A stretch of DNA of 51,774 nucleotides from Pseudomonadota bacterium. Its GTDB lineage: Bacteria; Pseudomonadota; Alphaproteobacteria; GCA-2731375. The notes below the pieces were generated by a model that ran no database searches, was not told the DNA's origin, and worked only from the letters and a program-made list of their open reading frames with translations. The translations under genes and the position numbers were made by a program. The number at the start of each line of letters is the position of its first letter. Positions within the stretch are counted from its first letter, which is position 1. The stretch is from contig JAQBYC010000019.1 in the NCBI GenBank assembly GCA_027623205.1, positions 1 to 51,774 of the forward strand, written 5' to 3'. This document shows positions 2,752 to 27,283 of the stretch, in pieces.

Positions 2752-2859
2752 TCATCGATCACGATAATTTTTCATCTCCATCGTCGTAGGCCATTGGCGT
2801 GGAAATGATCCGGTGGCCATGGCGCTCGCGGTCACCAGTGTTTTCAGATGAGCCTTTAT
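2752..2859 (-). pseudogene. Possible remnant of a small secreted protein with a mutated start codon
   Basis: In the 220-base gap between two minus-strand genes, an AAAGGA ribosome-site-like sequence is followed at normal spacing by ATA rather than ATG. The frame then reads like a signal peptide (K-A-H-L-K-T-L-V-T-A-S-A-M-A) before losing that character. A one-step frame change gives a plausible cleavage region (STPMAYDDG). This fits a dead small secreted-protein gene, but the evidence is only composition and position, so it could be chance. Confidence 0.22.
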
Positions 2860-2922
2860 GTCGTATCCTTTCTTTCCAAAGTTGAGTGTGAAGTGACGAA
2901 ATGGGAAACGGTCCGCCGTCCT

Positions 2923-3207
2923 TCATGCACTTGGGTCTGGGTCTCCCTTGGAATGAGCGCCCTCTGCTGGGATCTTGCTGCCGGATGCGCATGATTTGCC
3001 CCCAGATATGTTCATGCAGAGCCCTAGGGCGCACATCGCCGCGCAGGGAAGGACGGCCAGCAGGATGGACGCGGCACCCACTGCTTCCAGCCAACCCCAG
3101 TTCATTGCCATGCCGCCGGCCGCGATCCCGATGGCTAGAATTATCAGACCGCGTCTGCCGCCGATATAGGGCCAGATCGTGTTCACCATGCCTTGGGCGA
3201 GCGCCAT
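2923..3207 (-). CDS. Small Cys-containing membrane protein of copper gene clusters
   Basis: A 94-residue protein with two hydrophobic segments (about residues 18-36 and 40-60) and a cysteine-rich stretch just after and at the end of the second one (C-A-A-M-C-A-L-G-L-C-M-N) plus one more Cys in the hydrophilic tail. The start at 3207 has an AGAGGA ribosome site at good spacing. I do not recognise a named domain; short proteins of this plan, with the CAAMCALGLCMN-like segment, recur beside multicopper oxidase genes. The Met and Cys residues at the membrane interface could bind Cu(I), which is inference. It lies between the TlpA-like and TVP38-like genes in the same direction. Confidence 0.72.
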   Translation of the reverse strand: MALAQGMVNTIWPYIGGRRGLIILAIGIAAGGMAMNWGWLEAVGAASILLAVLPCAAMCALGLCMNISGGKSCASGSKIPAEGAHSKGDPDPSA

Positions 3208-3233
3208 CGACGTTCCTCTTGAACTTGATGTTC

Positions 3234-3920
3234 TCATTGGTCTTTCTGCTGCGTTTGATCTTCCGTGGACTGGATGGGCGCCGAGGCATGGGGCTTGTTC
3301 GGCTTTGTGAGATGTTCGCGAAGAAAGGCGATCAATTCCGGGCTGTCCCACTCGGCGGGGCCGACGAGCCTTCCCAATTCGCGGCCTTTTCGATCGACCA
3401 GCAACGTCGTGGGAATGCCAACGACACCAAGCTGGCGCATCACTCGACTGGATTTGTCGGCATAGACGCTGAGAGATTTGAGACCCAGCTCCCGGTAGAA
3501 CGCCTTGACGACGGGCGCGCCCTGACGATCGATGGAGAGCGCGACGACCTCGAAATCCGGCCCGCCGAGCATGGCTTGCAGACGATCCAATGTCGGCATT
3601 TCGCGGCGGCATGGTCCGCACCATGTGGCCCAGATGTTCAACAGCACCAGCCTGCCCCGAAAGTCGGCGAGGGTGAGCGCGCGATCCTCGCCGTCCACAA
3701 ACCGGAGCTCGGGAAGCGCCCGTGGCTCCTCCAGAAGCGTAAAGCTAAACCCTGCATTCGCAGACGGTTTCGCCTCTAAAGTAACCGCCGCCGATCGGAC
3801 CGCTGAGTTGGATGACGAAAAATTCCAGTACTTCGCCACAACGACGATGGTCAGCGTCACGGCGATCAGCAGGCTTGCCGCAGCTATCACTTTTTGAACA
3901 GTCACCAAATTCATGATCAT
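3234..3920 (-). CDS. TlpA/ResA-like membrane-anchored thiol-disulfide oxidoreductase
   Basis: A 228-residue protein with an N-terminal membrane anchor (residues about 10-30) and a periplasmic thioredoxin fold. The active site is WCGPC (Cys101, Cys104) and the cis-proline loop is GIPTTLLVD. A charged, Gln-rich tail follows the domain. TlpA/ResA proteins reduce apo-cytochrome c cysteines or copper-site cysteines of SCO/CuA proteins, which fits the nearby c-type cytochrome and SCO genes. Its ATG at 3920 overlaps the stop codon of the upstream dsbE fragment as ATGA, so it may be translationally coupled to it. A second ATG lies six bases further in (3914), and either could be used. Confidence 0.87.
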   Translation of the reverse strand: MIMNLVTVQKVIAAASLLIAVTLTIVVVAKYWNFSSSNSAVRSAAVTLEAKPSANAGFSFTLLEEPRALPELRFVDGEDRALTLADFRGRLVLLNIWATWCGPCRREMPTLDRLQAMLGGPDFEVVALSIDRQGAPVVKAFYRELGLKSLSVYADKSSRVMRQLGVVGIPTTLLVDRKGRELGRLVGPAEWDSPELIAFLREHLTKPNKPHASAPIQSTEDQTQQKDQ

Positions 3921-4081
3921 TCGCTCTCGGACACCGGTGCGGCCGGCAAAATCGTTTGGTTGGTTTTCTGCAACCGTCTGATCAAAGGAAGAAGCATCTC
4001 TTCGAGCGCTTTCGGCGTGATCGCACCAATATGCTTATCGGCGATCTGTCCATTCCGGTTGATGACGAAGGTCTCGGGCAT
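3917..4081 (-). pseudogene. dsbE: C-terminal fragment of a DsbE/CcmG thioredoxin (54 codons, still open)
   Basis: The frame reads MPETFVINRNGQIADKHIGA and on to a stop. It matches, with substitutions, the C-terminal third of the complete DsbE at 7392-7994 (VPETFIVGPDGRIAHKHIGA there). The N-terminal anchor and the CxxC active site are missing, so it cannot be a thioredoxin. The fragment is nevertheless intact in frame. It begins with an ATG two bases after the stop of the 46-residue gene, has a GGGAGG ribosome site and ends in an ATGA overlap with the TlpA-like gene. It may simply be a deletion remnant, or it may be translated as a short peptide that couples its neighbours. Confidence 0.75.
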
Positions 4082-4082
4082 G

Positions 4083-4223
4083 CTAATCCTCCCGGCGTCT
4101 GGTAAAGAACAGGTATTTGACGAGTGCCGCCACGGCCAAGATCGGCAGAACGGTGATCAGAACACCGAACCCGCCCATGAACCAACCGCCCATCATGCCT
4201 CCGCCCGTCATGTTGTTCATCAT
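4083..4223 (-). CDS. 46-residue Met/Gly-rich single-span membrane protein
   Basis: A short gene with a good AGGGAG ribosome site before a double ATG. The product begins MMNNMTGGGMMGGWFMGG, then one hydrophobic span (about residues 19-40), then a positive tail (TRRRED). Met clusters on the predicted periplasmic face resemble the methionine-rich Cu(I) sites of other small proteins in copper islands, including the SHOCT-type protein at 11946. It follows the cytochrome c gene by 24 bases and precedes the dsbE fragment by one base. No named family was recognised. It is too short for most gene finders but has codon structure and a ribosome site. Confidence 0.6.
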   Translation of the reverse strand: MMNNMTGGGMMGGWFMGGFGVLITVLPILAVAALVKYLFFTRRRED

Positions 4224-4247
4224 TGCAAAATCTCCCTATTCCGTTCT

Positions 4248-4940
4248 TCAGCATCTCTCTTTGATGAATTGGCTAATCTCCGCTGGAGACGAAAACACAA
4301 GGGAAGCCCGGTCGACCCTCATGCCAGAGCCGACAATTACGGGGCGCTCTTTTGGCGGCCCCTTCGTACTCGTATCGCTTTTGAAGCGGAGATTGAACTC
4401 CCAGTATTTTGAGATTTCCCCGGTTGCCGTCGTTATCTGGTAGGTGTCTCGACAATGGCTGAGCGCCGTCACCTGAAATTTGGTTGGTGGATTTGAGCGA
4501 TCGGCGGGATCGGCCCTGCTGGTCGATTTCACCGACGACACTCCACTTCCCGACCCGAGTTGCTTCAAGTAGGCGACAATGTCCAGGCGCTCAGCGGCGT
4601 TGTCCATACCGCGTATTCGCATTGATGTGCCGGGTACCATCGACCCTGGATCGCGGAGCCAAAAGTTCAGCGTCTTATCGCTCCAGACAATTCCGGAGCT
4701 CCTGATCGCCTCTGAATAGCGGTCGAAACTCTCGATGGCGCCGGCGTTTTTGCCCCAAATGTTCGAAAGGCTCGGGCCGGTCTTGTGCAGACTCGGTTCC
4801 ACCGAATGGCACGCGACACACTTGAGAAACGCCTTCCTTCCCTGATCGGGATTACCGGCGGCCAAGACACCCGAGGCGCTAAAAAGCAGCGCGGCAATAG
4901 CTGCAAGTGCGCGCGACGCGAGAAAACTCTTGCCCTTCAT
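4248..4940 (-). CDS. Periplasmic class I cytochrome c with an unusual C-terminal domain
   Basis: A 230-residue protein with a signal peptide (residues 1-28, cleavage after VLAAG-like sequence). The heme site CVACH lies at 41-45 and a likely axial Met in the VPGTSM stretch near residue 107, so residues 29-130 form a complete mono-heme cytochrome c of the cyt c2/c550 type. A linker rich in Ser and Arg leads to about 90 extra residues containing two cysteines, one of them the last residue (KERC). I do not recognise this second domain. The start at 4940 was chosen because the signal peptide starts there; its ribosome site AAAGGA sits in the end of the multicopper oxidase gene. It is directly downstream of the oxidase and is a plausible electron partner of it, by inference. 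Confidence 0.85.
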   Translation of the reverse strand: MKGKSFLASRALAAIAALLFSASGVLAAGNPDQGRKAFLKCVACHSVEPSLHKTGPSLSNIWGKNAGAIESFDRYSEAIRSSGIVWSDKTLNFWLRDPGSMVPGTSMRIRGMDNAAERLDIVAYLKQLGSGSGVSSVKSTSRADPADRSNPPTKFQVTALSHCRDTYQITTATGEISKYWEFNLRFKSDTSTKGPPKERPVIVGSGMRVDRASLVFSSPAEISQFIKERC

Positions 4941-4956
4941 TCGAACCGCTTTTCCT

Positions 4957-6369
4957 TTATGAGACACGGACAATGCCCATCATGCCGGCGGCCAGGTGTT
5001 CGGCGATATGGCAATGGAACATCCAGTCGCCGGGATTGTCCGCGACAAAAGCGATATCAGCGTTCTCGCGCGGCGCAATCAAGACGGTATCCTGCCACTC
5101 GCGGTATGGCGTTTGCCGCCCATTTCGTGAGATAACACGGAAGGAATGGCCGTGCAGATGGATCGGATGATACCAGGCGGTCTCGTTCCGCAGGGTCAAG
5201 ACATGGGAGCGGCCCTGCTCCAGTGTCAGCAATGGTTCCATCACCGGCCCTTCGAAAGCCACGCCGTTGATTGTCCACATCTTGCCGCCGCCCATCATCC
5301 GGCCCATCATTCCACCACCCATCATCCCGCCACCCATCATCCCGCCACCAAACGCAACCTCGTGGCGCTTTGCGCGCGCGATATCCGGTTCCGGCATGGT
5401 GTTTGCCAGCAGGCGAATGGAAAATACGGGCGGTCTTGCCCGCAATGCCGGCTTGTCCGAATAAACAATATCGATCAGCCTGTAAGTCTGAGACGGGTAG
5501 AACCGGTCGACGACCGTAAACGACTGTCCTGACTCGTTTGCCATATCAATAATGAGATCGATCCGCATCGCGGGGCCCAGAACAACCAGCCCGTTTGCTG
5601 GGCCATGGGGCTCCACCGGTTGACCGTCGTAGGCGATGATGCGCGGCCGATGAGCGCCGAAGTCCAGTCCAAATATCCGCGCATTTGCCGTGTTGATGAG
5701 CCTCAGCCGTATACGCTCGCCGGCGCGAACCTCGAAACTATCCGGCATTTGGCCGTTGATCGTCACCGTGTTCCCAAGGCGGCCCGCCATTCCGGCGTCC
5801 ATGCGATTGCCGAAGTCGTCCGAGATCGCTGCATTGGACAAAAGCCGCCAATCATCGAGCACCCAGGTTATGTCGCGATCCACCTCGATCGGTTCACGCT
5901 CTTCGACGATCATTGGGCCGGAAAGTCCGCGCCCGATCTGCTCGGCGCTGTTCGTGTGCGGGTGATACCAATACGTTCCGGCGTCCGGAACATCGAACTC
6001 GTAGGTGAAGGTTTCGCCGGGCGCGATCGGTTTCTGGGTGAGGTGTGGGACACCATCCATGGCGTTCGGCAGCCGCAGGCCGTGCGAATGGACCGTCGTC
6101 TCTTCGTCGAGGCGATTTTCGACAGTAAATTTCAGGCGTTCGCCCTGGCGTACACGAATTTCCGGCCCCGGCACCTGGCCGTTATATGACCATACGGTCG
6201 TCTGGGGATATGCTTTTCCGGCTAGGGCAGCACGGCCGGGTTCCGCCCTGAGCGGAAAGTCCGCCGTCATGGGCGCGGCAAGCAGAGACCGAACCGGCAT
6301 CGAAGCCGCAAGGGAAACGCCTAGTCCCGCCCGCACTACAGATCGACGGGAAACAATCGTGTTTCGCAT
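4957..6369 (-). CDS. Tat-exported multicopper oxidase (CueO/CopA-like) with Met-rich loop
   Basis: A 470-residue three-cupredoxin oxidase. The N-terminus carries a twin-arginine signal (SRRSVVRAG, residues 7-15). All four copper-ligand motifs are present: HSHG (94-97), WYHPHT (134-139), HPIHLHGH (401-408) and HCHIAEH (452-458), giving a type 1 site and the trinuclear cluster. A GGGMM-type repeat block (about 341-364) replaces the Met-rich region that binds Cu(I) in CueO. The start at 6369 has a GGAGG ribosome site and begins just before the Tat motif; a 32-residue upstream extension is rejected. Such enzymes oxidise Cu(I) to less toxic Cu(II) in the periplasm. It is followed by the cytochrome c gene and preceded by a small secreted Cys protein. 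Confidence 0.93.
   Translation of the reverse strand: MRNTIVSRRSVVRAGLGVSLAASMPVRSLLAAPMTADFPLRAEPGRAALAGKAYPQTTVWSYNGQVPGPEIRVRQGERLKFTVENRLDEETTVHSHGLRLPNAMDGVPHLTQKPIAPGETFTYEFDVPDAGTYWYHPHTNSAEQIGRGLSGPMIVEEREPIEVDRDITWVLDDWRLLSNAAISDDFGNRMDAGMAGRLGNTVTINGQMPDSFEVRAGERIRLRLINTANARIFGLDFGAHRPRIIAYDGQPVEPHGPANGLVVLGPAMRIDLIIDMANESGQSFTVVDRFYPSQTYRLIDIVYSDKPALRARPPVFSIRLLANTMPEPDIARAKRHEVAFGGGMMGGGMMGGGMMGRMMGGGKMWTINGVAFEGPVMEPLLTLEQGRSHVLTLRNETAWYHPIHLHGHSFRVISRNGRQTPYREWQDTVLIAPRENADIAFVADNPGDWMFHCHIAEHLAAGMMGIVRVS
5285..5350 (-). repeat. Short tandem repeat coding the Met/Gly block of the multicopper oxidase
   Basis: The plus strand shows CCCATCAT at 5291, 5303, 5318 and 5333 with 12- and 15-base spacing, encoding GGGMM units on the minus strand. 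Such a repeat can change unit number by slippage and so alter the number of Met ligands. Confidence 0.75.
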
Positions 6370-6513
6370 TCGAACGGCCCTCCATCCAACAGATATCCAC
6401 TGAGACAGCCTGGCCGACAAGCGGCCGTACTCCGCGGAAAAACTGACCCAGGGTACCATTGGCACCGGGCCAACAGCGCTGGCGGCCCCATCGGGAACTA
6501 CCGCCGCGCTTTT

Positions 6514-6861
6514 CTAGATGGAGAGTCGGGGAGGATAAGGATCGGGCGTGACGGATAGCCCAACATTGGCTGTTGGGATCGACCGTAAATACGTAGCCAG
6601 CGGTTGCCGCCCAAACTCCGGCGTTTCAAAGACAATGCCTGTGAGGCCGACGCAAAAGACGGTCGGGCAGAGCGCGCTCATGGCCGGCGAGGCGCCGCAA
6701 TCGTCGCAGCGGTCCAGTGTCGGAGTTTCAGCGTGTCCAGCACAAGAGTCTGGCGAAGCCACGGCGAAGGCAGCCATGGCAATCCCCTGCATCGGCAAGC
6801 CGATCACGAAAGATAGCGCCACCAAAGCGGCGCAAAGGCGTTGAAACCGAACTCTGTTCAT
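6514..6861 (-). CDS. Small secreted Cys-containing protein of copper loci (DUF2946-like style)
   Basis: A 115-residue protein with a signal peptide (about residues 1-30, ending MAAFA). The mature part has cysteines spaced as C-A-G-H, then C-D-D-C-G, then two later Cys, and ends in a proline motif (DPYPPRLSI). It is the first gene of the minus-strand run with the multicopper oxidase. The protein at 9893 has the same general plan, with secretion signal, paired Cys and a terminal proline-rich motif. Short proteins of this type, sometimes annotated DUF2946 or CopL-like, are common next to copper genes; the assignment is by appearance only. A metal-binding or sensing role is inferred from the Cys and His residues. 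Confidence 0.65.
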   Translation of the reverse strand: MNRVRFQRLCAALVALSFVIGLPMQGIAMAAFAVASPDSCAGHAETPTLDRCDDCGASPAMSALCPTVFCVGLTGIVFETPEFGRQPLATYLRSIPTANVGLSVTPDPYPPRLSI

Positions 6862-6966
6862 AGGTCAACGACGTAGCATGGGTAGGAATTATCTTCAAGA
6901 AACGTCTGTTCAACCCTTCGCGACCAGATGCCACATTGGTGTCCGCCGATGTCGATGCATCTCAAA

Positions 6967-7150
6967 GGCAGTGTCAGGGGAAACCGGCTTGAACTGGTGA
7001 GGCGCATTTCGCAACGTCCTTTAATGAGACATCCATTCCGATATTTCAAGACGACACCCGAGATCATCCGCTTGGCCGTGATGATGTATTTCCGGTTTCC
7101 GCACCTCTGGCGGGCTGTCGATCACGAAGGCGAAGGGCCGGAGCCACTCT
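6967..7150 (+). mobile_element. Remnant 1 of an IS6-family insertion sequence
   Basis: The left end GGCAGTGTCAGG at 6967 is an IS6-type terminal repeat. From ATG 7024 the frame reads HPFRYFKTTPEIIRLAVMMY followed by FRFP, the conserved N-terminus of IS6 transposases. It then jumps in frame to HLWRAVDHEGE, which in complete transposases lies about 50-60 residues further on. The rest of the transposase and the right inverted repeat are missing; the sequence runs into the ccdA remnant near 7150. The element therefore cannot transpose by itself. It sits between the copper run and the ccdA remnant. Confidence 0.8.
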
Positions 7151-7391
7151 GTAACCGACGGCCGATGCGTCCAACTGATTTGAGACGCCGCGGGACCGAC
7201 CCGGTAAAGACCGCCACCTGCAAGAATGGAATGCCTAAACCACGGGCATAGACAATCAACAACGATGCGCTCCCTGCGACGGTGCCGTGGGCGTCGCTCA
7301 AAGTAGGAACACTGCCAAGAATGGGGCCGATACACGGTGTCCAGCCAAAAACAAAGGCCCAAGGCGCGCTAACACCGGCGATCTCGAGCAT
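7151..7391 (-). pseudogene. ccdA: Internally deleted and truncated ccdA (cytochrome c biogenesis membrane protein)
   Basis: The first eight residues (MLEIAGVS) look like the normal start of CcdA and overlap the dsbE stop codon (TAGATG). They join directly to APWAFVFGWTPCIGPILGS, which in CcdA/DsbD family proteins lies after the third or fourth membrane span and carries the second conserved Cys. Roughly 110-120 residues with the first Cys are missing, and the C-terminus is lost where the IS6 remnant begins. One conserved Cys alone cannot carry electrons across the membrane, so this is a dead gene. Intact CcdA would have supplied reducing power to DsbE/TlpA in the same cluster. Confidence 0.78.
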
Positions 7392-10326: not shown

Positions 10327-11037
10327 TCAATTCGTAGGCGCTGGCGTGCCACGGATATTCTCCGATACTTGCGAGGCGTCCGAGATGGCGCGCCCGCTGG
10401 CGATATAGCCAATACCGAAATACCTTGGTAGGTATCGATATTCCGCCAGCGTTTCCCGCATCACATCCCATGGCCGACGCTTGGCGACCGCCATGGATAC
10501 GGCAAACGGTCGGACCAGCCAGATCATGAGCGGAGCTAAATAGCGAAGCCAGCCAGGCGGCAAGCGTATGTCGGCGACGACAAGCCGCCCTCCGGGCCTC
10601 AGCGCCTGCTCGGCGCGCTTGATCACAGTTGCGTAGCCGGGTTCGAGAGTCAGGGCAAAGGTCGAAATGACCCCATTCAGGTTCGACGGGAATTCAAACG
10701 CCGCCGCGGATGACTGAACAAGCGTGACGTTGTCCCAGTTTTGTTTGCGCACCCTGCCTGCGGCCTGTTCCAACATGGCGTCCGTAAGGTCGACGCCGAT
10801 GATCCGGCCTGTTGGTCCGATCGCATCCCGCATTAGTCCGAAGTTAAGTCCGGTGCCACAGCCAATTTCCACAACCGTATCGCCAGGCCGCAAATGCAAC
10901 GCTCGCACCGCTTGTTGCCGGTGATCCCATAAGCGAAAACCGAGCAAGTAATAGAGATTGGCCGTAAAATCGTACAGCGCGGCACGCTTCCGATACACGC
11001 TTCGCACTTCGTCCCGGTGGGTAAAGTCACGTATCAT
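10327..11037 (-). CDS. Class I SAM-dependent methyltransferase (UbiE/phospholipid methyltransferase-like)
   Basis: A 236-residue soluble Rossmann-fold methyltransferase. Motif I is VVEIGCGTGLN (about residues 55-65), followed by the acidic motif II end (GVDLTDAML) and the post-motif region RPGGRLVVADIRLP. A hydrophobic patch near residue 165 (WLRYLAPLMIWLV) suggests membrane association, as seen in phosphatidylethanolamine N-methyltransferases of the PmtA type. The substrate cannot be decided. The ATG at 11037 has a GAGGTGA ribosome site; a GTG three bases earlier is also possible. It lies upstream of the small secreted protein and YVTN genes in the same direction. Confidence 0.82.
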   Translation of the reverse strand: MIRDFTHRDEVRSVYRKRAALYDFTANLYYLLGFRLWDHRQQAVRALHLRPGDTVVEIGCGTGLNFGLMRDAIGPTGRIIGVDLTDAMLEQAAGRVRKQNWDNVTLVQSSAAAFEFPSNLNGVISTFALTLEPGYATVIKRAEQALRPGGRLVVADIRLPPGWLRYLAPLMIWLVRPFAVSMAVAKRRPWDVMRETLAEYRYLPRYFGIGYIASGRAISDASQVSENIRGTPAPTN

Positions 11038-11098
11038 CACTCACCTCGCAATCAATCGCGATGAAGCAACCCATGCGCGGAACCAAGCCCGTGATGGA

Positions 11099-11221
11099 TC
11101 AATCGAGCCGTTTCCCCATGCCACTATGACGATCGACTTTGAATGTCTGCATCCGAGAACCGTCAATGGTAATGATCTGAGCGGTAATCGTGTCCTCGTC
11201 TTTTTGCGTCACTTCGGTCAT
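11099..11221 (-). pseudogene. C-terminal fragment related to the Met/Gly-repeat protein at 20177
   Basis: About 40 codons reading DTITAQIITIDGSRMQTFKV then DRHSG and a short tail. The C-terminus of the intact protein at 20177-20716 reads DKIVADITTVDGSLVRRLEV then DRHSG. The match in spacing and in the VDRHSG motif is convincing over 35 residues. The signal peptide and Met repeats are absent. A longer open frame continues upstream to about 11431, but it overlaps the start of the divergent cytochrome gene and its N-terminal part has no similarity, so I read this as a remnant. Confidence 0.5.
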
Positions 11222-11347
11222 TTTGCGCGGCCCTCGGCCCGCTTGTGTGGTAAATAGGGTTTCCACTGACTGGAATGTCAAGGCCGCTTCATCTGGAGGC
11301 ACCTGCGACGCGTCGACGCAGCCAGGACGACGCAGGTGGACTGGGCC

Positions 11348-11378
11348 TTTACCTTCCAGGTGCTGGAACGACGATATT
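11348..11378 (+). promoter_or_regulatory. CueR/HmrR-type (MerR family) operator-promoter
   Basis: TTTACC (11348-11353) and GATATT (11373-11378) are separated by 19 bases, the over-long spacer typical of MerR-family promoters. The spacer holds the split dyad CCTTCC-N7-GGAACG (5 of 6 pairs of the CCTTCC/GGAAGG copper operator). It lies about 50 bases upstream of the cytochrome c gene at 11430 and points toward it. No merR-type gene is in the window, so the regulator must lie elsewhere. Confidence 0.6.
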
Positions 11379-11429
11379 GAGGTGGCGGGCATCACATCAG
11401 TTGAGCGAGGCGCATTTGCGTTACCCATC

Positions 11430-11900
11430 ATGAGCAAGAAACCAGTAAAGAAAATCAATTTCGTGGAACGAATAAGGGAAAAGCTGCCGGCACTGCTGGT
11501 TTTGGCGGTGGTCGTCGGCGGCGTTTTGGTCTTCATATATCAATCGACGAACCAGGCCGGTTCGGCGGCGCTGGTCGATGTGAAGGTTCCCGCTCTTTCC
11601 GCCATCGGTACGCAAGGCAAGACGGCCTTCGCCAAGAACTGTGCCCAATGCCACGGCGACAATGCCGCCGGCGGGCAAGGCGGGCCGCCGCTAATACATA
11701 AAATTTATAATCCCGGGCATCACGCCGATGGCGCCTTTTGGCTCGCTATGCAGCGGGGCGTATCGCAGCATCATTGGCGTTTTGGCAATATGCCGCCGCA
11801 ACCCCAAGTCGGCGAGGACGTAGCCAAGGCGATCATCGCCTATGTCCGCGAGCTGCAGGCCGCAAATGGCATTAGCTATCAGCCCCACCGCATGAATTAG
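11430..11900 (+). CDS. Membrane-anchored mono-heme cytochrome c
   Basis: A 156-residue protein with one N-terminal membrane span (about 20-38) and a periplasmic cytochrome c domain. The heme motif is CAQCH (71-75), and a late Met (GNMPPQP) is the likely sixth ligand. The layout resembles cytochrome c proteins of copper clusters (CopC-like c-type or cbb3-like mono-heme subunits). The ATG at 11430 has only a weak ribosome site; a long upstream open frame was rejected because it lacks protein-like sequence and spans the operator. A CueR-like operator precedes it and a SHOCT gene follows after 45 bases. It may pass electrons from a periplasmic copper oxidase to a terminal oxidase, by inference. 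Confidence 0.83.
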   Translation: MSKKPVKKINFVERIREKLPALLVLAVVVGGVLVFIYQSTNQAGSAALVDVKVPALSAIGTQGKTAFAKNCAQCHGDNAAGGQGGPPLIHKIYNPGHHADGAFWLAMQRGVSQHHWRFGNMPPQPQVGEDVAKAIIAYVRELQAANGISYQPHRMN

Positions 11901-11945
11901 CGGTGCAAAATGGGTTCTAGGGCGCAAACCGCAAGGAGAGAGAAA

Positions 11946-12290
11946 ATGGCCAAATTTGCAGAATCAAGGCGCTGGTGCCACGGCGCGATGACGTTCGTAG
12001 TGACGGCAGGCTTGGCCCAATTCGCTATCGCCGATAGCCAGACCGGAGGCGGTTACCAGCATATGTGGGGTGGGGGTATGTCCATGATGTTCTTGGGACC
12101 TTTCATGATGATCGTATTCTTGGCCGTCATCGTGGTCATTGCCGTTCTGGCCGCCAGATGGCTTCTACCGGCATCGGGTTCGGCCTCGTCGTCTGGGTCG
12201 AGCGCCCGCACAATTCTTGATGAGCGTTTCGCACGCGGCGAGATTGACGCGGAAGAGTACCGGGCCAGATGCGCGGAGCTTGGGAAATAG
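11946..12290 (+). CDS. Small membrane protein with C-terminal SHOCT domain
   Basis: A 114-residue protein: a secretion-signal-like N-terminus, a Met/Gly/His stretch (HMWGGGMSMM), a membrane span (about 54-76), a Ser-rich linker and a C-terminal SHOCT motif (ARTILDERFARGEIDAEEYRAR). SHOCT is a short helical domain of oligomerisation found at the ends of many small membrane proteins, frequent in copper clusters. The start at 11946 has an AAGGAGAG ribosome site. It follows the membrane cytochrome c in the same direction and should share its CueR-like promoter. Met residues before the span may bind copper. Confidence 0.8.
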   Translation: MAKFAESRRWCHGAMTFVVTAGLAQFAIADSQTGGGYQHMWGGGMSMMFLGPFMMIVFLAVIVVIAVLAARWLLPASGSASSSGSSARTILDERFARGEIDAEEYRARCAELGK

Positions 12291-12368
12291 GGGCACCGTG
12301 CCGAATGCGCCCGCGCCCATACAGCTCTAAGTCCAACCAAGATCGGTGGCGAGAAAGGGACGGAAGCG

Positions 12369-12774
12369 ATGCGCGTTCCGACGAAACCAGTTCCCGCCTA
12401 TCCATGGTTCAATCGCGCCTTCTTCTGGAAGCGGAAAAAATCCTACGGCAAGGTCCTTGAACCGGGGCTGTCGTGGGGGCGGTCAACCCGGGGTGTTTGC
12501 GGCCCTGGCGCTGCTATCCGGCGCCCTGAACCGAAAGCGCTCGCCGCTCGATCCCGCGCTTTGATCTCTTGTGACCGTTCGAGTCTCGCAGATCGACCAC
12601 TGCGCCTTTTGCGTCAATATCAACGCCGCCACCTTGCTGAAACATGGCGTCGCCATGGATAAGGTCGAGGCCCTTTACGGGTGCGCGGAAGCAGCCTTTT
12701 CAATGACCTGGAACGCGGTGCGCTCGATCATACCGAGGGCATAACGTACTCGGACAAAGAGGTAACTAGAGCGT
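12369..12774 (+). pseudogene. Carboxymuconolactone decarboxylase/AhpD-like protein, broken by two frameshifts and a stop
   Basis: Pieces of one protein appear in order in changing frames. From 12369 comes MRVPTKPVPAYPWFNRAFFW and on to GLSWGRS. After a frame change near 12480, FAALALLSGALNRKRSPLDP runs to an in-frame TGA (12562-12564, where the family has Arg). It continues in the same frame with VTVRVSQIDHCAFCVNINAA, which contains the CxxC redox motif of the family. Near 12680 there is another frame change to SLFNDLERGALDHTEGITYS. The C-terminal helix region is missing. The intact protein would be a peroxidase-type CMD protein; this copy is dead. Confidence 0.8.
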
Positions 12775-12791
12775 GCCGCGGTTGCGGCCCG

Positions 12792-13496
12792 TCATACTGC
12801 GCCCATGGAGTTTCGTACGAGGAGCGGGAATACATTCAGGTGATTGTTCACCACCCTCACGCCAGCACTGTTTTCGGCTGCTGCGCCGGCGGCCCGGACT
12901 TCCTCGACAGACCCCGTCACGCCCCACAGGTCCGCGACGCCATCCGAGACGACGACATTGATGAGCTCGGCTCTGACGCCGGCATCCTCGAAGGCGGCCA
13001 AGATAGACGTGCGAACATCTTCGTCGCCCGCCATGGGAACCGGCGCGCGCCGCCAGGCTATGAGGCCATGCAGCAGATTGGCGCGGCTGACTATGCCAAC
13101 CACTTTCCCCTCCCGCATAACCGGGACACGTTTGATCCGATGTTCTTCCATCGTGGCGGCAACATCGTCCAACGCGGCATCATGGGTCACGGTTACCACG
13201 TCACGGGTCATGACATCGCGTGCCCGGCGACCATGTGCTTTGAGATAATCCACCGACTGCGCCTCCGGCGTGGCAAAAATTGTAAGCCACCAGGATGGCT
13301 GTCGGTCCGTACCAGACTCGGGGCGTCGCATCAAATCGCCCTCGCTGACGATGCCGGCGAGATTTCCGGCATCATCCACCACGGGAACGGCACTGATTGC
13401 ATGATCCAGCAGACAACGCGCAACCTCCTGCACGTCCGTGGTGGGTGCCACCGTGATCGGGGGGGATGTCATAATATCCTTGGCTTGCATTTCCAT
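12792..13496 (-). CDS. CBS-CBS-BON domain protein
   Basis: A 234-residue cytoplasmic protein. Two CBS domains (about residues 1-62 and 90-148) each carry the typical DIM/DVMTRDVVTV start and a G-I-V-S-E/R-x-D/N-L end. They are followed by a BON domain (about 155-225) with the VVVSDGVADLWGVTGS core. CBS pairs bind adenine nucleotides; BON domains often contact membranes or phospholipids. The combination is common in alphaproteobacterial stress and metal clusters, without an agreed function. A CueR-like dyad lies 130 bases upstream, which suggests copper induction. The gene end overlaps nothing; the dead CMD gene points toward it. Confidence 0.85.
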   Translation of the reverse strand: MEMQAKDIMTSPPITVAPTTDVQEVARCLLDHAISAVPVVDDAGNLAGIVSEGDLMRRPESGTDRQPSWWLTIFATPEAQSVDYLKAHGRRARDVMTRDVVTVTHDAALDDVAATMEEHRIKRVPVMREGKVVGIVSRANLLHGLIAWRRAPVPMAGDEDVRTSILAAFEDAGVRAELINVVVSDGVADLWGVTGSVEEVRAAGAAAENSAGVRVVNNHLNVFPLLVRNSMGAV

Positions 13497-13634
13497 TCCT
13501 CCTGAATAATCCGCACTGCACTATACGCCGAGTCCGGTCCAATATTGGAACTTCCTAGGTCAAACCACCTGAGGCCGCACTAGCGCCAACGGCGATCCGA
13601 GCCATGGCACGGCGTCGGTCGTCTATTACCTGGG

Positions 13635-13657
13635 CATTCCAGTAACCGGAAGGTCAA
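13635..13657 (-). promoter_or_regulatory. Second CueR/HmrR-like operator half-dyad with TTGACC
   Basis: Read on the minus strand, TTGACC (13657-13652) runs into CCTTCC-GGTTACT-GGAATG, a CCTTCC-N7-GGAAGG-type dyad with one mismatch. It faces the CBS-BON gene (start 13496). A good -10 at the expected 19-base spacing is not obvious, so promoter activity is less certain than for the site at 11348. Confidence 0.45.
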
Positions 13658-13769
13658 GAGACAGCGATCCTCCAATTCGGGCTACTGAATGCCGCGGCTC
13701 CTTCGCAAGGGTCGTTCTGTCGGCAGTAAACCGCCATTTGATGGCGAAACCAGGTGTTCTTCTGTCAGT

Positions 13770-14663
13770 TTAAATTGCGCTTGCCGCCCGGACGCGGATG
13801 GTGCGGGTCACCAGGACAATTCCGAGCAAAGTTGATGCGATGCCGCCCGCCTTCGTCCAGCCAATTGTATCGCCATAGAACAAGACGCCCATCGAAAGAC
13901 CAAATATGGGAATGAGGAAGCTGAAAGCGATAGCCCGGTTCAACGGGACTCTCTCGAGTACCGAGAACCAGAGCCAGTACACGAGCGCCGTTCCCGGAAG
14001 GCTCAGGCCAACCAGAGCGAATAGGAAACGAGTGGACCAGATGATGTCCTGGGGTTCCTCAAAAGCCCATGCGATGGCCGCCAAGGGCAGTGCGCCAATG
14101 AGCATTTGCAATCCCATGGCCATGAGAGCATCGACCCTACCGGCGATCCGCTTGATGAGCACATTGCTCACCGAGATGCCGAGTGCGGCAAGCAGGATAT
14201 AGGCGACCCCGATAGCGTAGTTTCCCGCCGGAGCGGCGAAGAGCCGCGGAGCCGCAATGATGACTATGCCGCCAAAACCCAGAGCCAGGCCGAACTTTCC
14301 GCCAAGATCCAACCGCTCTCCAAGGAAAATGCCGGCGAGAACGGCGGCAAGCAAAGGCTGAGTGTTCGCGATGACGGTGGCGATGCCCGGCGACACGAAC
14401 TCGGCGGCGTGAAACATCCCAAGAAACCCGAGGGTCGTAGCCCCGAGACCAACGGCACCTATGGTGGCCCAGGTGCGGGCACCCCTGGGCATCGGGCGGC
14501 CAAGAAGCAAGGCAAGTGCGATGAGCGACGTCCCCGCCAGGAGAGCGCGGATTGTGGCAAAAGTTATATGCGGGGCGAATGGTATTCCGGCGATGATCAG
14601 CGGAAAACAAATCGCCCATAGCAATATCACCAGAATAATTATTAGAACTTCAGATACCTTCAC
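13770..14663 (-). CDS. EamA/DMT-superfamily transporter (ten-span permease)
   Basis: A 297-residue membrane protein with about ten hydrophobic segments arranged as two EamA repeats. The first contains the WAICFPLIIAGIPFAPHITF start and the FLGMFHAAEFVSPGIATVIANTQPLL stretch, and the second contains the LIKRIAGRVDAL to IPIFGLSMGVLFYGDTIGW region. EamA proteins export amino acids, metabolites or drugs; the substrate here is unknown. It stands alone between a 273-base gap on the left, which holds the operator at 13635, and a small membrane protein gene on the right. Nothing ties it to copper. Confidence 0.85.
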   Translation of the reverse strand: MKVSEVLIIILVILLWAICFPLIIAGIPFAPHITFATIRALLAGTSLIALALLLGRPMPRGARTWATIGAVGLGATTLGFLGMFHAAEFVSPGIATVIANTQPLLAAVLAGIFLGERLDLGGKFGLALGFGGIVIIAAPRLFAAPAGNYAIGVAYILLAALGISVSNVLIKRIAGRVDALMAMGLQMLIGALPLAAIAWAFEEPQDIIWSTRFLFALVGLSLPGTALVYWLWFSVLERVPLNRAIAFSFLIPIFGLSMGVLFYGDTIGWTKAGGIASTLLGIVLVTRTIRVRAASAI

Positions 14664-14875
14664 GACTGCTGCATGTCCGTCGTCAAAATATTTGGGACTG
14701 TTGAGCCTGTTTCATGGCGGAGGATCTGGCTCATCCAGGTTTGATGTTAGGCCGCTTGTCGCTGATGGTTTAAGCGGCGGTTCCGGATGGTCAGTTTCTT
14801 GATTTTCTCCCTCGTTTCGATAAAGGCGGTATCGCGCCCGAAGTAAGCCGATAGCGGATATCGATGTCCACGACG

Positions 14876-15049
14876 TTATCGCCCAGTTGACTTGTGGCGC
14901 GCCAGCAAACCGATGGCGACAACGGCGCCGAGGGCGATTACGATTGTGCCTAGCACCCCGTAAAACATCGCATTCGACCACGCGACCCAAATTCCCAGCG
15001 TGCCCAGTACCGCTATAAATCCAAGAATTGTGATGACGAGATTTATCAT
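14876..15049 (-). CDS. 57-residue two-span membrane protein
   Basis: A short frame with a GAAAGG ribosome site and start MINLVITILGFIAVLG. Two hydrophobic spans (about 3-18 and 28-51) flank a WVAWSN turn, and the protein ends in a basic tail (ARHKSTGR). No family was recognised. It lies between the DMT transporter and the YVTN fragment, on the same strand as both. It is short, but the hydrophobicity pattern and ribosome site favour a real gene. Confidence 0.5.
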   Translation of the reverse strand: MINLVITILGFIAVLGTLGIWVAWSNAMFYGVLGTIVIALGAVVAIGLLARHKSTGR

Positions 15050-15152
15050 TTTGATGCCTTTCTCTTTCCGAACAGGTTTTTGCTTTCCTTCCCCAACAAC
15101 AAGTTGGGCATTCCAATGGCCGCGACCGGCCGTTCCGATCGATTCCGACCAC

Positions 15153-15371
15153 CTAGAAAATCGGTAGGAAGGGGGTCGGCGTAATCACGCCGCCGTCAGG
15201 GTTGCCCTCAGTGGCGATTCGGCCCGCTATAAGCTTGTTGTCAAGATCGATGACAGCGATGCTATCAGAGCCGTTCATGAACGCATAAGCGACGGCACCC
15301 CGGCATTCCGATCCAGACAGGCGTCGGGCGCTATCAAGCTCTTGTGCGAAGGGCCCGGCCGATGTTCTCAT
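15153..15371 (-). pseudogene. Probable YVTN propeller C-terminal fragment
   Basis: The last 45 residues (from AYAFMNGSDSIAVIDLDNK) look like a YVTN/YncE blade, with the DSIAVIDLD strand and a GNPDGG turn. The preceding 25 residues have no propeller character. The ATG at 15371 overlaps the stop of the hflC fragment (TGATGA). A complete propeller would need six or seven blades, so this is a fragment or a chance frame over old coding sequence. Confidence 0.4.
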
Positions 15372-16232
15372 CACTTGCCCTCGCCAGGCCGGGCTCGAAC
15401 GATATCGCCATCCGGGGCCATCCCCTTCAGAAATTTGAAGAGGTCACTGTCCGTGGAAAGGACCAGGGTCGTATTTTTGCCGATGATGGATTTGTAGGAT
15501 TGCATGGTCCGTGTGAATTCATAGAACGCCACCGCTTCCGGGCCCTGGTTGTAAGCCCTCGCGTAGATTTCGGTGGCTTTCGCATCCGCCACGCCGCGGA
15601 TCTCCTCGACCTTCCGGTAGGCTTCAGACTGGATCTTGTTCAGGTCACGCACACGATTTCCACGGATTCTGGCGGCCTCGCCGTTACCTTCCGACAGGAA
15701 GCGTTCCGCGATCTGCCGCCGTTCGCTGATCATTCGATCATAGATCTTTGGGCGCACGCTTTCGTTGTAGTTGATCCGCTTGAAACGTATATCAAGCAAT
15801 TCGATGCCGAACACCCGCACCTTTTCGGCTGCCGCGGTAAAAATCTCTTTCTCGACCAGTTTGCGACCCTTCTGGATTGGCACCAAGGCGCCCATATCCA
15901 GCTCTTTTTCCGCGTCTGTCAGAAGGGTATCGCGCAACGGTACGCGATCTTTGGTCGTGCGGATAATCTCGATCAACTCATGCTTGGCGACGGCATTACG
16001 GGTCTCGCTGCCGAGAATATCGTCCAGGCGGGACTGAGCGCTACGTTCATCACGCAATCTTAGAAAGTACTGGAGAGGATCGGTAATCCGCCAGCGGGCG
16101 AAGAGGTCGACCGCGATGTACAGTTTATCCTTGGTCGGCATGTCCGAGGGGTTGCCGTCCCATTCAAGAATCCGCTTGTCGATCGGATTCACGTCCTGGA
16201 TGAAAGGGATTTTTATCTTAAGTCCGGCGGTT
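15371..16232 (-). pseudogene. HflC-like SPFH/band 7 protein lacking its N-terminal membrane anchor
   Basis: From about residue 17 of the open frame the sequence is a good HflC: GLKIKIPFIQDVNPIDKRIL, the ARWRITDPLQY region, the AERFLSEGNGEAARIRGNRV helix and the C-terminal segment ending in SDLFKFLKG. The first 50 or so residues of HflC, with the membrane span, are gone. The first 16 residues of the open frame are antisense to the prs fragment that begins at about 16233. No hflK is adjacent. The core hflK-hflC pair is complete at 39788-41793, so this is a second, foreign and truncated copy. It has no credible start. Confidence 0.8.
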
Positions 16233-16712
16233 GCTCTACACGCGGCACCGGCCATCGCGGCCTGGATCCGGAATACCATACCGGACCCCGTTCTGGTTGG
16301 ACCCGACAGCGAGAGTGAGCAATGGGTCGCCGCCGTGGCGAACGATGCCGGAGCCCCCTTTATGGTGCTGGAAAAAACACGCCGCGGCGACCGCGATGTT
16401 CAGGTATCGGTGCCGGACATCGAGCGCTGGCGGGAATGCACACCGGTCCTGGTCGACGACATCATCTCCACGGCGCGGACCATGATCGAGACGGTCGGTC
16501 ACCTCAAGGCGGCCGCGATGGCCCCGCCGGTCTGTATCGGTATTCACGCCGTCTTTGCGGATAATGCCTATGACGAACTGAAGGCAGCCGGTGCTGGGCA
16601 GGTGGTGACCTGCAACACAATTCCGCACCCATCCAATGCGATCGATATGACCGGTCTTATTACGCTCGGCGTTCGGGATTTAGTTTCGCGGGCGCAAAAA
16701 TCTTCAAGTTGA
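16233..16712 (+). pseudogene. prs: C-terminal half of a ribose-phosphate pyrophosphokinase-like protein
   Basis: The frame from about 16229 reads LHAAPAIAAWIRNTIPDPVL, VGPDSESEQW, and then the PRPP-binding loop VLVDDIISTARTMIE, ending after the conserved NTIPHPSNAI. This matches the second phosphoribosyltransferase domain of PRPP synthase-like proteins, including the variant linked to phosphate/thymidine metabolism. The N-terminal domain, with the ATP-binding region, is absent and no ribosome site precedes the homology. It abuts the truncated hflC in opposite orientation, so both were cut at the same junction. Confidence 0.78.
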
Positions 16713-21787: not shown

Positions 21788-21929
21788 GTTATGGATATTC
21801 GCCAGGTCACCGAAGCAGCTATGTCAATTCGCAGCTTGGTATTAAAGGTGATTGACTTCTATCATCCTATCGGTCGCTGAAGACTGCGATATTTTCTACC
21901 CAATGGAACCGCGGAGTAGGGATTACGCC

Positions 21930-24296
21930 ATGAACAAGAATAGTCATCACGATCATGGGCATCATCACGGCCCTGCAACCGCCTCGGCCGATGCCGTTAC
22001 GGCTAAGGACCCAGTTTGCGGCATGACGGTAAGCCTGGACGCGGCGAAGCCGAGCCGGGAGCACGGAGGTGAGACCTATCACTTCTGCTCGCAGAAGTGC
22101 CATGACAAGTTCGCGGCCGACCCGGAGCACTTCATCTCTGGCGCGCACAAGGAGCAACGCGTGGCCCTGCCGAAGGGCACCAAATACACCTGCCCCATGC
22201 ACCCCGAGATCGTGCGCGACGAGCCGGGCATTTGCCCAATCTGCGGCATGGCGCTGGAACCGATGGGGGTTCCCGCAGGCGATGAAGGGCCGAACCCCGA
22301 GCTTGTCGATTTCAAGCGCCGGTTTTGGATAGGCGCGGTGCTGACGGTTCCGCTCCTTGTTCTGACAATGGGTCCCTTTGTGGGGCTCGGCTTCGTGCGC
22401 GACATATTTGGCGAGCGTGCGACGCTCTGGATCGAACTGATTCTTGGCACACCGGTCATTCTATGGTCCGGCTGGCCGTTTTTTGTACGGGGTGTCAAAT
22501 CTGTCATAAGCCGCAACCTGAACATGTTCACGCTCATCAGCATGGGCGTTGGCGCGGCGTATCTGTTCAGCGTGGTCGCGGTGCTCGTTCCGGGGATTTT
22601 TCCGGGCGGGTTTCGCGATGCGGACGGCCACGTCGGCGTTTATTTCGAGGCCGGCGCGGTGATCGTCGTTCTGGTCCTGCTCGGACAATTGATGGAGCTC
22701 GGCGCACGCGAGCGCACGGGCTCGGCGATCCGGGCGCTTCTTGATCTCGCCGCGAAGACCGCCCGCGTGATCCTCGAGGACGGGCGGGAAGAGGAAATCC
22801 TGCTTGAGGATGTACAGGTGGGCGACCGCTTGCGCGTGCGCCCGGGCGACAAGGTGCCGGTCGATGGCGTGGTGGTCGAGGGCCGCTCGTCGATCGACGA
22901 GTCGATGATCTCTGGCGAACCCATACCGGTTGAAAAAGTCGAGGGTGACAGGGTAACCGGCGCCACGATCAACGGCACCGGTAGTCTGGTGATGGAGGCG
23001 AAACGCGTCGGCGCCGACACCATGCTCAGCCAGATCGTCGAGATGGTCGCAAACGCTCAGCGCAGCCGTGCGCCGATCCAGAAATTGGCCGATTCCGTGG
23101 CCGGCATGTTCGTGCCGGCAGTGATCGGAGTGGCGATCCTCGCCTTTATCGCTTGGTCGCTCTGGGGCCCGCCCCCAGCGCTCTCGTACGCGCTGGTATC
23201 CGCGGTTGCCGTTTTGATCATTGCCTGCCCCTGTGCGCTGGGACTTGCTACCCCGATGTCGATCATGACGGCGACGGGCCGGGGCGCGCAGGCGGGCGTA
23301 TTGATTAAAAACGCCGAGGCGCTCGAGCGTTTTGCCAAAGTTGACACCTTGATCGTCGATAAAACCGGCACATTGACCGTCGGCAAACCGAAACTCGTCG
23401 CTGTGCTTCCGGAGGCGGGCCATGATGAGGCCGAGGTGCTCCGCCTGGCCGCGAGCCTGGAGCGCGGTTCGGAACACCCTCTGGCGGAGGCGATCGTCAC
23501 CGGGGCTGAGGAGCGCGGTGTCGCCATTGCCAAGGCAGAGGCGTTCGAGGCGGTCACCGGCAAGGGTGTGAAGGGCGTCGTCGACGGCAAGCCGGTGGCG
23601 CTCGGCAACGCACGCCTGATCGCCGATCTGGGCCTCGACGGCGGCAGGCTTGCCGAAACGGCCAATGCGCGGCGCGATGAGGGCGAGACGGTGATGTTTG
23701 TTGTCATTGGTTCTGAAATCGCAGGCCTCGTGTCGGTCGCAGATCCGATCAAGGAGACGACCCCGGCTGCATTGAAGGCGCTGCACGAGCAGGGCTTCCG
23801 CATCGTCATGGCGACCGGCGACAACGAGCGCACGGCAAAGGCGGTGGCGGGAAAACTCGGAATTGACGAGATCCGCGCCGACGTTCTGCCCGAAGATAAG
23901 GCGCGCATCATCAAGGAGATGCAGGCGGAGGGCCGCAAGGTCGCGATGGCCGGTGACGGCGTCAACGACGCGCCGGCACTTGCCCAGGCCGACGTGGGCA
24001 TCGCCATGGGTACCGGCGCCGACGTGGCGATCGAGAGCGCGGGGTTCACCCTGGTAAAGGGCGATCTCAACGGCATCGTTCGCGCCCGCCGGCTGTCCCG
24101 GGCAACCATGCGCAACATCAAGCAGAACCTGTTCTTCGCCTTGATCTACAATGCCGCCGGTGTGCCCGTGGCGGCGGGCGTTCTCTATCCGTTCCTCGAT
24201 ATTCTGATTTCGCCAATGTTCGCGGCGGCGGCCATGAGCCTGTCGTCCTTATCAGTTGTCGGCAACGCGCTTCGACTGCGTTCGGTCAAAGTTTAG
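21930..24296 (+). CDS. copA: Cu(I)-exporting P1B-type ATPase with YHS and heavy-metal-binding N-terminal domains
   Basis: A 788-residue copper pump. The N-terminus is His-rich (HHDHGHHHG), followed by a YHS domain (about 27-68, DPVCGMTV) and a CPMHP-type heavy-metal-binding domain (about 85-112, with CPICGM). There is no classic CxxC HMA domain. The core is complete: TGE-type loop (SGEP), CPC membrane site (about 433, CPCALG) for Cu(I) binding, phosphorylation motif DKTGT (about 477), HP motif (EHPLAEA), GDGVNDAP (about 675) and the last spans with YN and MSLSSLS residues of the P1B-1 (Cu+) group. It pumps Cu(I) from cytoplasm to periplasm, feeding the multicopper oxidase. The start at 21930 has a GTAGGG ribosome site; an upstream in-frame extension of 26 residues is rejected. 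Confidence 0.95.
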
Positions 24297-25045: not shown

Positions 25046-25705
25046 ATGGAAAGCCCGTCATACGGCCTGTGGACCTTGGTCGCCATCAATTCGGCCATCT
25101 TCATTCTGTTCGGCTACAGCTTCTTCAAGCCTCAGACGAAGCGTGACTGGCGCTCGTTCGGGGCCTTCAGCGCGTTCCTCGTGGCGCTGTTCACGGAAAT
25201 GTATGGCTTTCCGTTGACGATCTACTTTCTCTCCGGTTGGCTACAAAGTAATTACCCGGAAGTGGATTGGCTTTCCCACGATGCGGGGCATCTGCCGGAA
25301 ATGCTGTTCGGTTGGCGCGCCTTCCCGCACCTCGGACCATTCCATCTCCTCAGCATGGTGATTATTGGCGCGGGCTTCCTTCTTCTCTCGGCGGCATGGC
25401 GCGTCTTGTACCAGGCGCAAAGGAAAGGGACGCTGGCCAAGACCGGACCCTACGCTTATGTACGCCATCCACAATATGTCGGCTTCATCCTGGTCATGTT
25501 GGGGTTTCTCTTTCAATGGCCGACGCTGCTCACACTCCTGATGTTCCCGGTACTGGTCTGGATGTATGTCCGATTGGCTCGTCATGAGGAGCAAGAAGCC
25601 ATCGCCGCATTCGGAATTGAATACGATGCCTATGCAGAGCGAGTTCCCGGGTTCATTCCTGGATTTCGCAGGCTCACCCTCGGCCACGAAGGGCGTGGAC
25701 CTTGA
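25046..25705 (+). CDS. Isoprenylcysteine carboxylmethyltransferase-like (ICMT/PEMT) membrane methyltransferase
   Basis: A 219-residue membrane protein of five or so spans. The C-terminal half carries the family signature: LAKTGPYAYVRHPQYVGFIL (SAM-binding R-H-P-x-Y), then RLARHEEQEAIAAFGIEYDAY with the conserved Glu-Glu and Y-x-x-Y. Bacterial members of this group methylate lipids or small thiols; the substrate in metal clusters is not established. AAAGGAGG precedes the ATG. Its stop is three bases from the left end of the IS6 element at 25709, so it is the last gene of the island. Confidence 0.86.
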   Translation: MESPSYGLWTLVAINSAIFILFGYSFFKPQTKRDWRSFGAFSAFLVALFTEMYGFPLTIYFLSGWLQSNYPEVDWLSHDAGHLPEMLFGWRAFPHLGPFHLLSMVIIGAGFLLLSAAWRVLYQAQRKGTLAKTGPYAYVRHPQYVGFILVMLGFLFQWPTLLTLLMFPVLVWMYVRLARHEEQEAIAAFGIEYDAYAERVPGFIPGFRRLTLGHEGRGP

Positions 25706-25708
25706 CCC

Positions 25709-26126
25709 AGGCAGTGTCAGAGCAAATCGGCTTGAGGCGGGTGGGGGAGTTCCGTCGTTTGCGGCGATGCCAAATCCCTTCCGTTATTTCAACAATTCGC
25801 CCGAGGTAATTCGCCTCACAATGATGATGTATGTCCGGATTCCGCTTTCGCTGCGGCAGATCGAAGATTTGCGCCACGGACGCGGCATCGATATCAGCCA
25901 TGAAACGGTTCGGCCCGCGGTTCGGGGCAGAGAGCCGCACGCAGCGCATTCATCACCGGTCATATTCACGGTGGCGATGGCATCTCGAGGAGGTTTTCGT
26001 GCGTATCAATGGCCAACCGCGTTGCCTCCGGCGGGCGGCGACGAAGGTCAGCGGAAACGCCGAACGCCAGGAGACCGGTCGCTGGCTCCGATTTTCCGCC
26101 ACCGCCCACGTTCCTCTGACAGTGCC
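25709..26126 (+). mobile_element. Internally deleted IS6-family element, both inverted repeats kept
   Basis: The left end GGCAGTGTCAGAG (25709-25721) and right end CTCTGACAGTGCC (26114-26126) are inverted repeats with one mismatch. Between them are IS6 transposase pieces: from ATG 25767 MPNPFRYFNNSPEVIRLTMM, PLSLRQIEDL and GIDISHETVR in one frame, then RWRWHLEEVFVRING in another. The 418 bp are about half the length of a typical IS6 element, and the C-terminal catalytic part is missing. Flanking 8-mers (TTGACCCA and CGCTAACC) differ, so there is no target duplication. The element could be moved only by a transposase supplied elsewhere. It marks the island-core border. Confidence 0.85.
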
Positions 26127-26128
26127 CG

Positions 26129-27283
26129 CTAACCGGCATAGCTGGGGCGGCGGGAGATGATCAGGTCGCGGTGAACATAGACGCTGAGTATCAGGCCGAA
26201 GCCGATCAATAGGGACATCATCGAGGTGCCGCCATAAGAGACCAGCGGCAGGGGAACCCCGACGACCGGGATCAGGCCCATGACCATGGCCATGTTGATG
26301 AAAACATACAGGAAGAAGGTTGAGATCACGCCGGCGGCCAACAGGCGGCCAAATTGACTGCGCGAGCGTACGGCGATGGCATAGCCGTAGGCTATGACCA
26401 ACATATACAGGCTCAATAATCCAAGGCAGCCTATGAGGCCGAATTCCTCGGCCAGCATGGTGAAGATGAAATCGGTTTGACGCTCCGGCAAAAAGGCCAG
26501 ATGGCTTTGCGTACCTTGCATAAAGCCCTTACCGAACAGCCCGCCCGAGCCCAGGGCGATCTTTGACTGCATGATATGATAACCGGCGCCCAAGGGATCG
26601 CGCTCCGGGTTCAGGTAGGTCAGCACCCGTTCCTTTTGATAGCCATGCAGCATGAACCGCCAGGCCAGCGGGATCGCCAACAGAACGGCGCCCAGAGCGA
26701 CGGCAAATTTCCACAGCCTCACCCCGGCCAACAACATGATTGCCGTCGCCGTCGCCAGCAGCAGGATCGCCGTGCCCAGGTCGGGTTGGCGCATGACCAG
26801 CGCGACGGGGATCAAGATCAACACAATGGGCACCACCAGCCAACGAATCCGGCCTACCTCTTCCAGAGGCAGGCCGTGGTAAAAGCGCGACAGGGCCAGA
26901 ACCAAGGCGATTTTCATCACCTCGGATGGCTGCAACTGGAACAGGCCCAGATCGACCCAACGCCGCGCGCCCATGCCGACGACACCCATAACCTCCACCG
27001 CCATTAACAGCAACAATGCCGCGGCATAGATCAAATAGGCGTGGCGCAGCCAGGCACGGATATCAATCAGCGCAATTAGCAACATCAAGCCGAGTCCAAC
27101 GGCAAAGCGGATCATCTGGCGCGATGCCCAGGGATGGATCTGGCCATTGGCGGCAGAGTACAACATGGCAAAACCGACCCCGGCGATCAGCGAGATCAAC
27201 AATATCAGCAACCAATTGATCTGCGCCAGCTTCTGCAGCAGGGTCAGATCAACCTGTCGGCTCATTTGTCCGCCCAGTGACAT
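26129..27283 (-). CDS. rodA: RodA, SEDS-family peptidoglycan glycosyltransferase of the elongasome
   Basis: A 384-residue ten-span SEDS protein that polymerises glycan from lipid II during rod elongation, paired with PBP2. Visible landmarks are GARRWVDLGLFQLQPSEVMK, the RQPDLGTAILLL segment with the catalytic-region Asp, and the C-terminal GVPLPLVSYGGTSMMSLLIG motif. The start at 27283 is used, with a possible internal start at 27265. The gene begins three bases after the PBP2 stop. Its own stop codon (26129-26131) is two bases from the right end of the IS6 element, so the end of this operon is the island border and its native terminator has been lost or displaced. Confidence 0.95.
   Translation of the reverse strand: MSLGGQMSRQVDLTLLQKLAQINWLLILLISLIAGVGFAMLYSAANGQIHPWASRQMIRFAVGLGLMLLIALIDIRAWLRHAYLIYAAALLLLMAVEVMGVVGMGARRWVDLGLFQLQPSEVMKIALVLALSRFYHGLPLEEVGRIRWLVVPIVLILIPVALVMRQPDLGTAILLLATATAIMLLAGVRLWKFAVALGAVLLAIPLAWRFMLHGYQKERVLTYLNPERDPLGAGYHIMQSKIALGSGGLFGKGFMQGTQSHLAFLPERQTDFIFTMLAEEFGLIGCLGLLSLYMLVIAYGYAIAVRSRSQFGRLLAAGVISTFFLYVFINMAMVMGLIPVVGVPLPLVSYGGTSMMSLLIGFGLILSVYVHRDLIISRRPSYAG

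Follow-up and report, generated by a model that had tools for sequence, protein, structure and literature searches.

We describe a decayed insertion sequence of the IS6 family that separates a copper gene segment from rodA in the draft genome of a member of an uncultivated genus of the Rhodospirillaceae. The element covers positions 25710-26126 of the forward strand (417 bp) in the window, which is the complete stretch of 51,774 nucleotides analyzed here. Synteny is broken at the rodA junction, IS6 DNA is present to either side of the break, and the element is probably a dead recombinant IS6 copy at this chromosomal break, made by the exchange of flanks between IS6 copies.

The terminal inverted repeats of the element were located at positions 25710-25722 of the forward strand (GGCAGTGTCAGAG) and at positions 26114-26126, read on the reverse strand (GGCACTGTCAGAG). 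They are identical at 12 of 13 positions and at 17 of the first 25 bases, and 12 of 13 was reached by none of 200,000 random pairs of 13-mers taken from the window at distances of 250-900 bp. Two pieces of a transposase gene, at 25767-25916 and 25912-26079, match the NCBIfam model transpos_IS6 with E values of 3e-7 and 0.003, respectively; both matches are below the family cut-off, and the pieces are in two different frames. When compared with a 235-residue IS6 transposase annotated on a Sulfitobacter plasmid, which was used as the reference, residues 5-51 are kept and the sequence then continues from residue 56 onward in another frame. By eye, GNAERQETGRWL is also retained, followed by a jump to the right end. 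The frame is broken by a 20-bp deletion in the HETVR-FWWN stretch.

The element shares with the IS6 family (IS26, IS257, IS6100; NCBIfam NF033587, Pfam PF13610) its related short terminal repeats, in which the GG tips and the TGT motif given in a review of the family (PMC7986276) are present, and its transposase fragments stand in the right order. It differs from the family in having a length of 417 bp, outside the ~700-890 bp given in the same review, no working transposase, and no 8-bp duplication. The DDE transposase of ~235 residues expected of an IS6 member is absent from the element, where fragments in two frames were found, and a search of the genome returned two fragments and no whole IS6 transposase. 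The element is a relic of an IS6 member and not a working member. The first-pass annotation of this DNA had described a half-length IS6 element with both inverted repeats and a broken transposase, which is what was found; its length, given there as ~418 bp, was measured to be 417 bp, with both ends in place. The gene boundaries it gave were also confirmed: the genes of the island stop at 25705, and the rodA stop codon begins at 26129. The relic starts 4 bp past the first of these stops, and its right end is separated from the second by 2 bp.

The rodA gene (26129-27283, reverse strand; stop codon at 26129-26131) belongs to the FtsW/RodA family and is located at the end of the elongasome operon. 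It was found in nine of the 10 genus-mates, with no copy in G007 and a partial copy in G003. In six of these nine genomes (G001, G002, G006, G008, G009, and G010), rodA is followed by an Lrp-type regulator and then by further genes of the same block. Other sequence follows rodA in G003, G004, and G005 and in the family member G011, as judged by eye. The DNA of the 417-bp element matches two of the 10 genus-mates, G009 and G010, in each case on a contig other than that of rodA. The joining of an accessory segment to rodA, as proposed in the first-pass annotation, would be at odds with island-free relatives that have the window's sequence after rodA; no such relative was found, and the Lrp block is what most of them have at this place.

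In the genome of the window, the Lrp block is located on a separate contig, C13, and is colinear there with the sequence that follows rodA in each of the six relatives with the block. The Lrp/AsnC domains of the Lrp gene on C13 were confirmed. The Lrp gene stops at 13019, and the similarity of C13 to these relatives is over 6 bp later, by C13:13025. An IS6 fragment starts ~110 bp beyond this point; it has no recognizable left end and shares 84% identity with the window element across 263 bp. The old neighbor of rodA had been predicted to lie beyond the left end of the island; it is not in the window, and was found instead beside the IS6 fragment on C13. The two broken ends also share a 15-mer, AACCGGCATAGCTGG, which stands at the 3' end of rodA in the window (26131-26145, forward strand) and occurs again at C13:13122-13136. 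When one mismatch or fewer was allowed, these were the only two places of this sequence in the 5.0-Mb genome, both at broken ends. The 15-mer on C13 extends into the last codons of rodA, an overlap that a simple insertion would not give. By eye, 11 of the 15 bases agree as well with the subtype-A left end, a subtype described below. The 15-mer on C13 may be the tail of rodA, or a diverged subtype-A left end that, with a small deletion, matches by chance.

Two subtypes of IS6 relic, A and B, are present in the genus, and the window element is a mosaic of the two. The part on the island side (25710-25818, forward strand) is of subtype B, and the part on the rodA side (25823-26126, forward strand) is mostly of subtype A; a B-like patch near offset 233-275 of the element means that this right side is not purely A-type. 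Among 92 informative sites, the change was placed at offset 109-114, with 27 of 28 sites being B-like to the left and 15 of 64 to the right, and none of 20,000 shuffles produced a change point as strong. Four other pairings of reference copies gave change points at 108-126, for which 0, 0, 3, and 16 of 20,000 shuffles were as strong. The window element agrees with the B copy from G010 at 55 of 60 sites in the first bin (1-60) and at 56 of 65 in the second (61-125). Over offsets 126-232, it agrees with the C13 fragment instead (at 36 of 40 and 64 of 67 sites).

A core of 69 bp (25853-25921, forward strand) has exactly the same sequence in the IS6 fragment that lies next to the displaced Lrp gene on C13 and holds the scar of the 20-bp deletion; on both sides of this core, the two copies are clearly less alike. 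Since the 20-bp deletion is common to the window relic and the C13 copy, that part of the decay is older than the join, or else conversion spread it. The loss of the transposase core had previously been placed after the join, and for this part of the decay that order does not simply hold.

The 8-mers that flank the relic, TTGACCCA and CGCTAACC, match at one of eight positions, and the reported lack of an 8-bp target duplication is therefore correct. The same comparison was made for four two-ended relics of the genus, namely, those of the window (417 bp), contig C66 of the same genome (216 bp), G010 (161 bp), and G009 (484 bp). None of the four has matching flanks (1, 2, 1, and 1 of 8 bases). 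Because the other three two-ended relics examined also lack a duplication, its absence is no special mark of an island border and need not signal one. Each flanking 8-mer was then searched for beside IS6 ends, with three mismatches or fewer allowed and reversed patterns as the control. This gave three hits (two in the control) and two hits (none in the control), respectively, and none was at a known IS6 relic. The matching 8-mer anticipated at the other border was thus not found within three mismatches; the C13 fragment, having lost its left end, is incapable of supplying one.

The segment joined to rodA contains a gene for a copper P-type ATPase (CopA; 21852-24296, forward strand) and ends with a gene of the isoprenylcysteine methyltransferase (ICMT) family (25046-25705, forward strand). 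The ICMT gene was found in one of the 61 genomes searched, that of the window, and was not found in the 60 other relatives. Cassettes similar to the CopA-ICMT cassette are carried by plasmids of Roseovarius, Roseibium, and Halomonas. With the cassettes of Roseovarius indicus pRIdsm_02 and a plasmid of Halomonas sp. KO116, the window shares the row CopA-DUF2933-ICMT, with DUF5676 upstream, at 73-77% DNA identity over ~40% of the query; the ICMT gene is 660 bp in the window and 648 and 660 bp in the plasmid cassettes. In those plasmids ICMT is followed by a YfcC family gene or NhaA, whereas in the window the IS6 relic follows. The restriction of ICMT to the genome of the window and the likeness of the cassette to plasmid copper cassettes mark the right end of the segment as accessory. 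Contig C4 of this genome (L240, 5308-7818) holds another copper ATPase gene, which is more distant (58% protein identity) and of a type common in the genus. The middle of the segment (window 10327-16279) holds methyltransferase, CBS-BON, EamA, and SPFH genes, which have no obvious tie to copper.

A second IS6 relic in the window (6967-7185, forward strand) has a left end only and retains transposase residues 2-28 and then 96-123. It has the same orientation as the relic at 25710, and the two bound ~18.5 kb with copper genes. The relic at 6967 was considered as the left border of the island and rejected; genes for SCO1, a redoxin, and a multicopper oxidase sit to its left. As copper-related genes continue beyond this relic, the window does not show the left border of the segment. 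Partial counterparts of region 1-6960 are scattered at separate places in relatives. On contig C38 of G009, CopA and its next gene are found near genes for ccdA and TlpA; in the window, these two groups of genes are at opposite ends of the segment. In this one case, the gene order does not support a circularly permuted island; ICMT was not found there, and by eye a MerR-like gene lies between. In a ccdA-like gene of the window (7140-7391), the 3' end is truncated by the relic at 6967, and an internal part that is present in G009 is missing as well.

We propose that a subtype-A IS6 copy most likely once lay between rodA and its ancestral neighbor, the Lrp-type block. This copy would have swapped flanks with another IS6 copy, located beside the plasmid-type copper segment, through homologous recombination by the host, presumably of the RecA type. 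The product in the window would be copper segment-B/A hybrid IS6-rodA and that on C13 would be Lrp block-IS6 fragment-other DNA, after which internal deletions may have shrunk the element to 417 bp. A plain reciprocal exchange should have left a product with a left part of subtype A and a right part of subtype B, but the C13 copy stays A-type up to its end at offset 328. The exchange would therefore have occurred in the 69-bp core with a partner that was already hybrid, or conversion took place. That neither flanking 8-mer has a partner was also counted against recombination between IS6 copies, as were the missing left end of the C13 fragment and the reach of its 15-mer into the last codons of rodA.

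The outcomes described in the IS6 review (PMC7986276) include replicative deletion, inversion, or cointegration as well as recA-dependent recombination between IS6 copies. Of the IS6-mediated replicative joining of an accessory segment to a core operon, as first suggested, the synteny break with IS6 DNA on both sides and the accessory right end stand; simple replicative joining explains the mosaic relic less well than recombination between two IS6 copies does. Direct replicative joining is possible but, in our judgment, unlikely. Here, replicative transposition (deletion, inversion, or cointegrate) would have broken the spacer between Lrp and rodA directly, leaving one copy per side, and the B-type left half would come from later conversion. 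Such an event, whose outcomes are among those in the review, agrees with the presence of related IS6 DNA to either side of the break, with the 20-bp deletion in both copies, and with the occurrence of AACC and more target sequence at both junctions. However, the 8 bp that should be shared are only partly alike (GCCCAACC and CGCTAACC, 5 of 8 by eye), and the B/A mosaic demands an extra step. The shared lesion lies within the transposase gene, and hence the copies would have had to move before it arose or be helped in trans.

The arrangement could also be an artifact of assembly, in which partners were swapped inside the 69-bp core, the true order being Lrp-IS6-rodA with the copper segment beside another IS6 fragment. 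A misjoin would likewise produce an identical core flanked by divergent arms whose partners are exchanged, and the draft genome consists of 228 contigs, several of which end in repeats with 64-67 exact shared bases. This is close to the length of the core and was counted against recombination between IS6 copies. On the other hand, 69 bp is spanned by ordinary short reads, both contigs cross the core without a break, and the switch from B to A is upstream of the core, so that a hybrid copy is present on the copper side in any case. We regard a misjoin as improbable. It is very improbable that the relic is a mere bystander, with IS6 remains already present in the spacer when the break arose by other means, and with ordinary conversion among relics as the source of the mosaic. 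IS6 relics are indeed common: a DNA search found them at five places in the genome of the window and at more in G009 and G010, most of them away from rodA. A bystander would nevertheless have to account for IS6 DNA on both sides of one break, where synteny ends within ~110 bp of it on C13 and within 3 bp of it in the window.

The junction provides a clean case: the break of a conserved operon neighborhood can be followed to its two ends, each of which carries IS6 DNA, and recombination between two IS6 subtypes is recorded in the element itself. The rearrangement is real but ordinary in kind, and since the mechanism is already well known, its general interest is modest. A broader reading, which we offer as a speculation that is more doubtful than the account of this junction, is that dead, transposase-less IS6 relics might serve as portable homology in the genus, still recombining with one another long after the end of transposition and attaching accessory segments of plasmid type to core operons.

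The relic also resembles the IS6-family MITEs, for which two examples of 227 and 336 bp are given in the IS6 review (PMC7986276), in being two-ended, without a working open reading frame, and of similar size, as are the 161-, 216-, and 484-bp relics of the genus. It differs in that the copies from its own genome and from G009 and G010 vary in their internal deletions, with the 20-bp deletion alone being shared, with C13. Each aligned relic has internal deletions of its own, and there is consequently no sign of one short form that multiplied. The two relics of the window, in the same orientation and with copper genes between them, are reminiscent of the pseudo-compound transposons and translocatable units of IS6/IS26, the left copy being a partial relic within the copper gene region. 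In contrast to those, the outer flanks are unmatched (ATCTCAAA and CGCTAACC), copper genes lie on both sides of the left copy, and the left halves of the two relics are of different subtypes.

In a family-wide search of 15 genomes, G010 was the richest in IS6; its best copy has a nearly full IS240 domain with one stop codon. Contig C66 of the window's genome carries two B-type relics in the same orientation and ~8.6 kb apart (L221, 1690-1905 and from 10264), the first of which is the 216-bp form with both ends. Past the IS6 fragment, the end of C13 (L002, 1764-1936) contains a repeated stretch of ~120 bp that is also found on C219, C227, C81, and C209, and from there the contig runs into a REP-like repeat at its end. 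This REP-like repeat, of ~70 bp, is likewise located at the start of the window (1-73); it occurs at many places in the genome, often at contig ends, and also in relatives.
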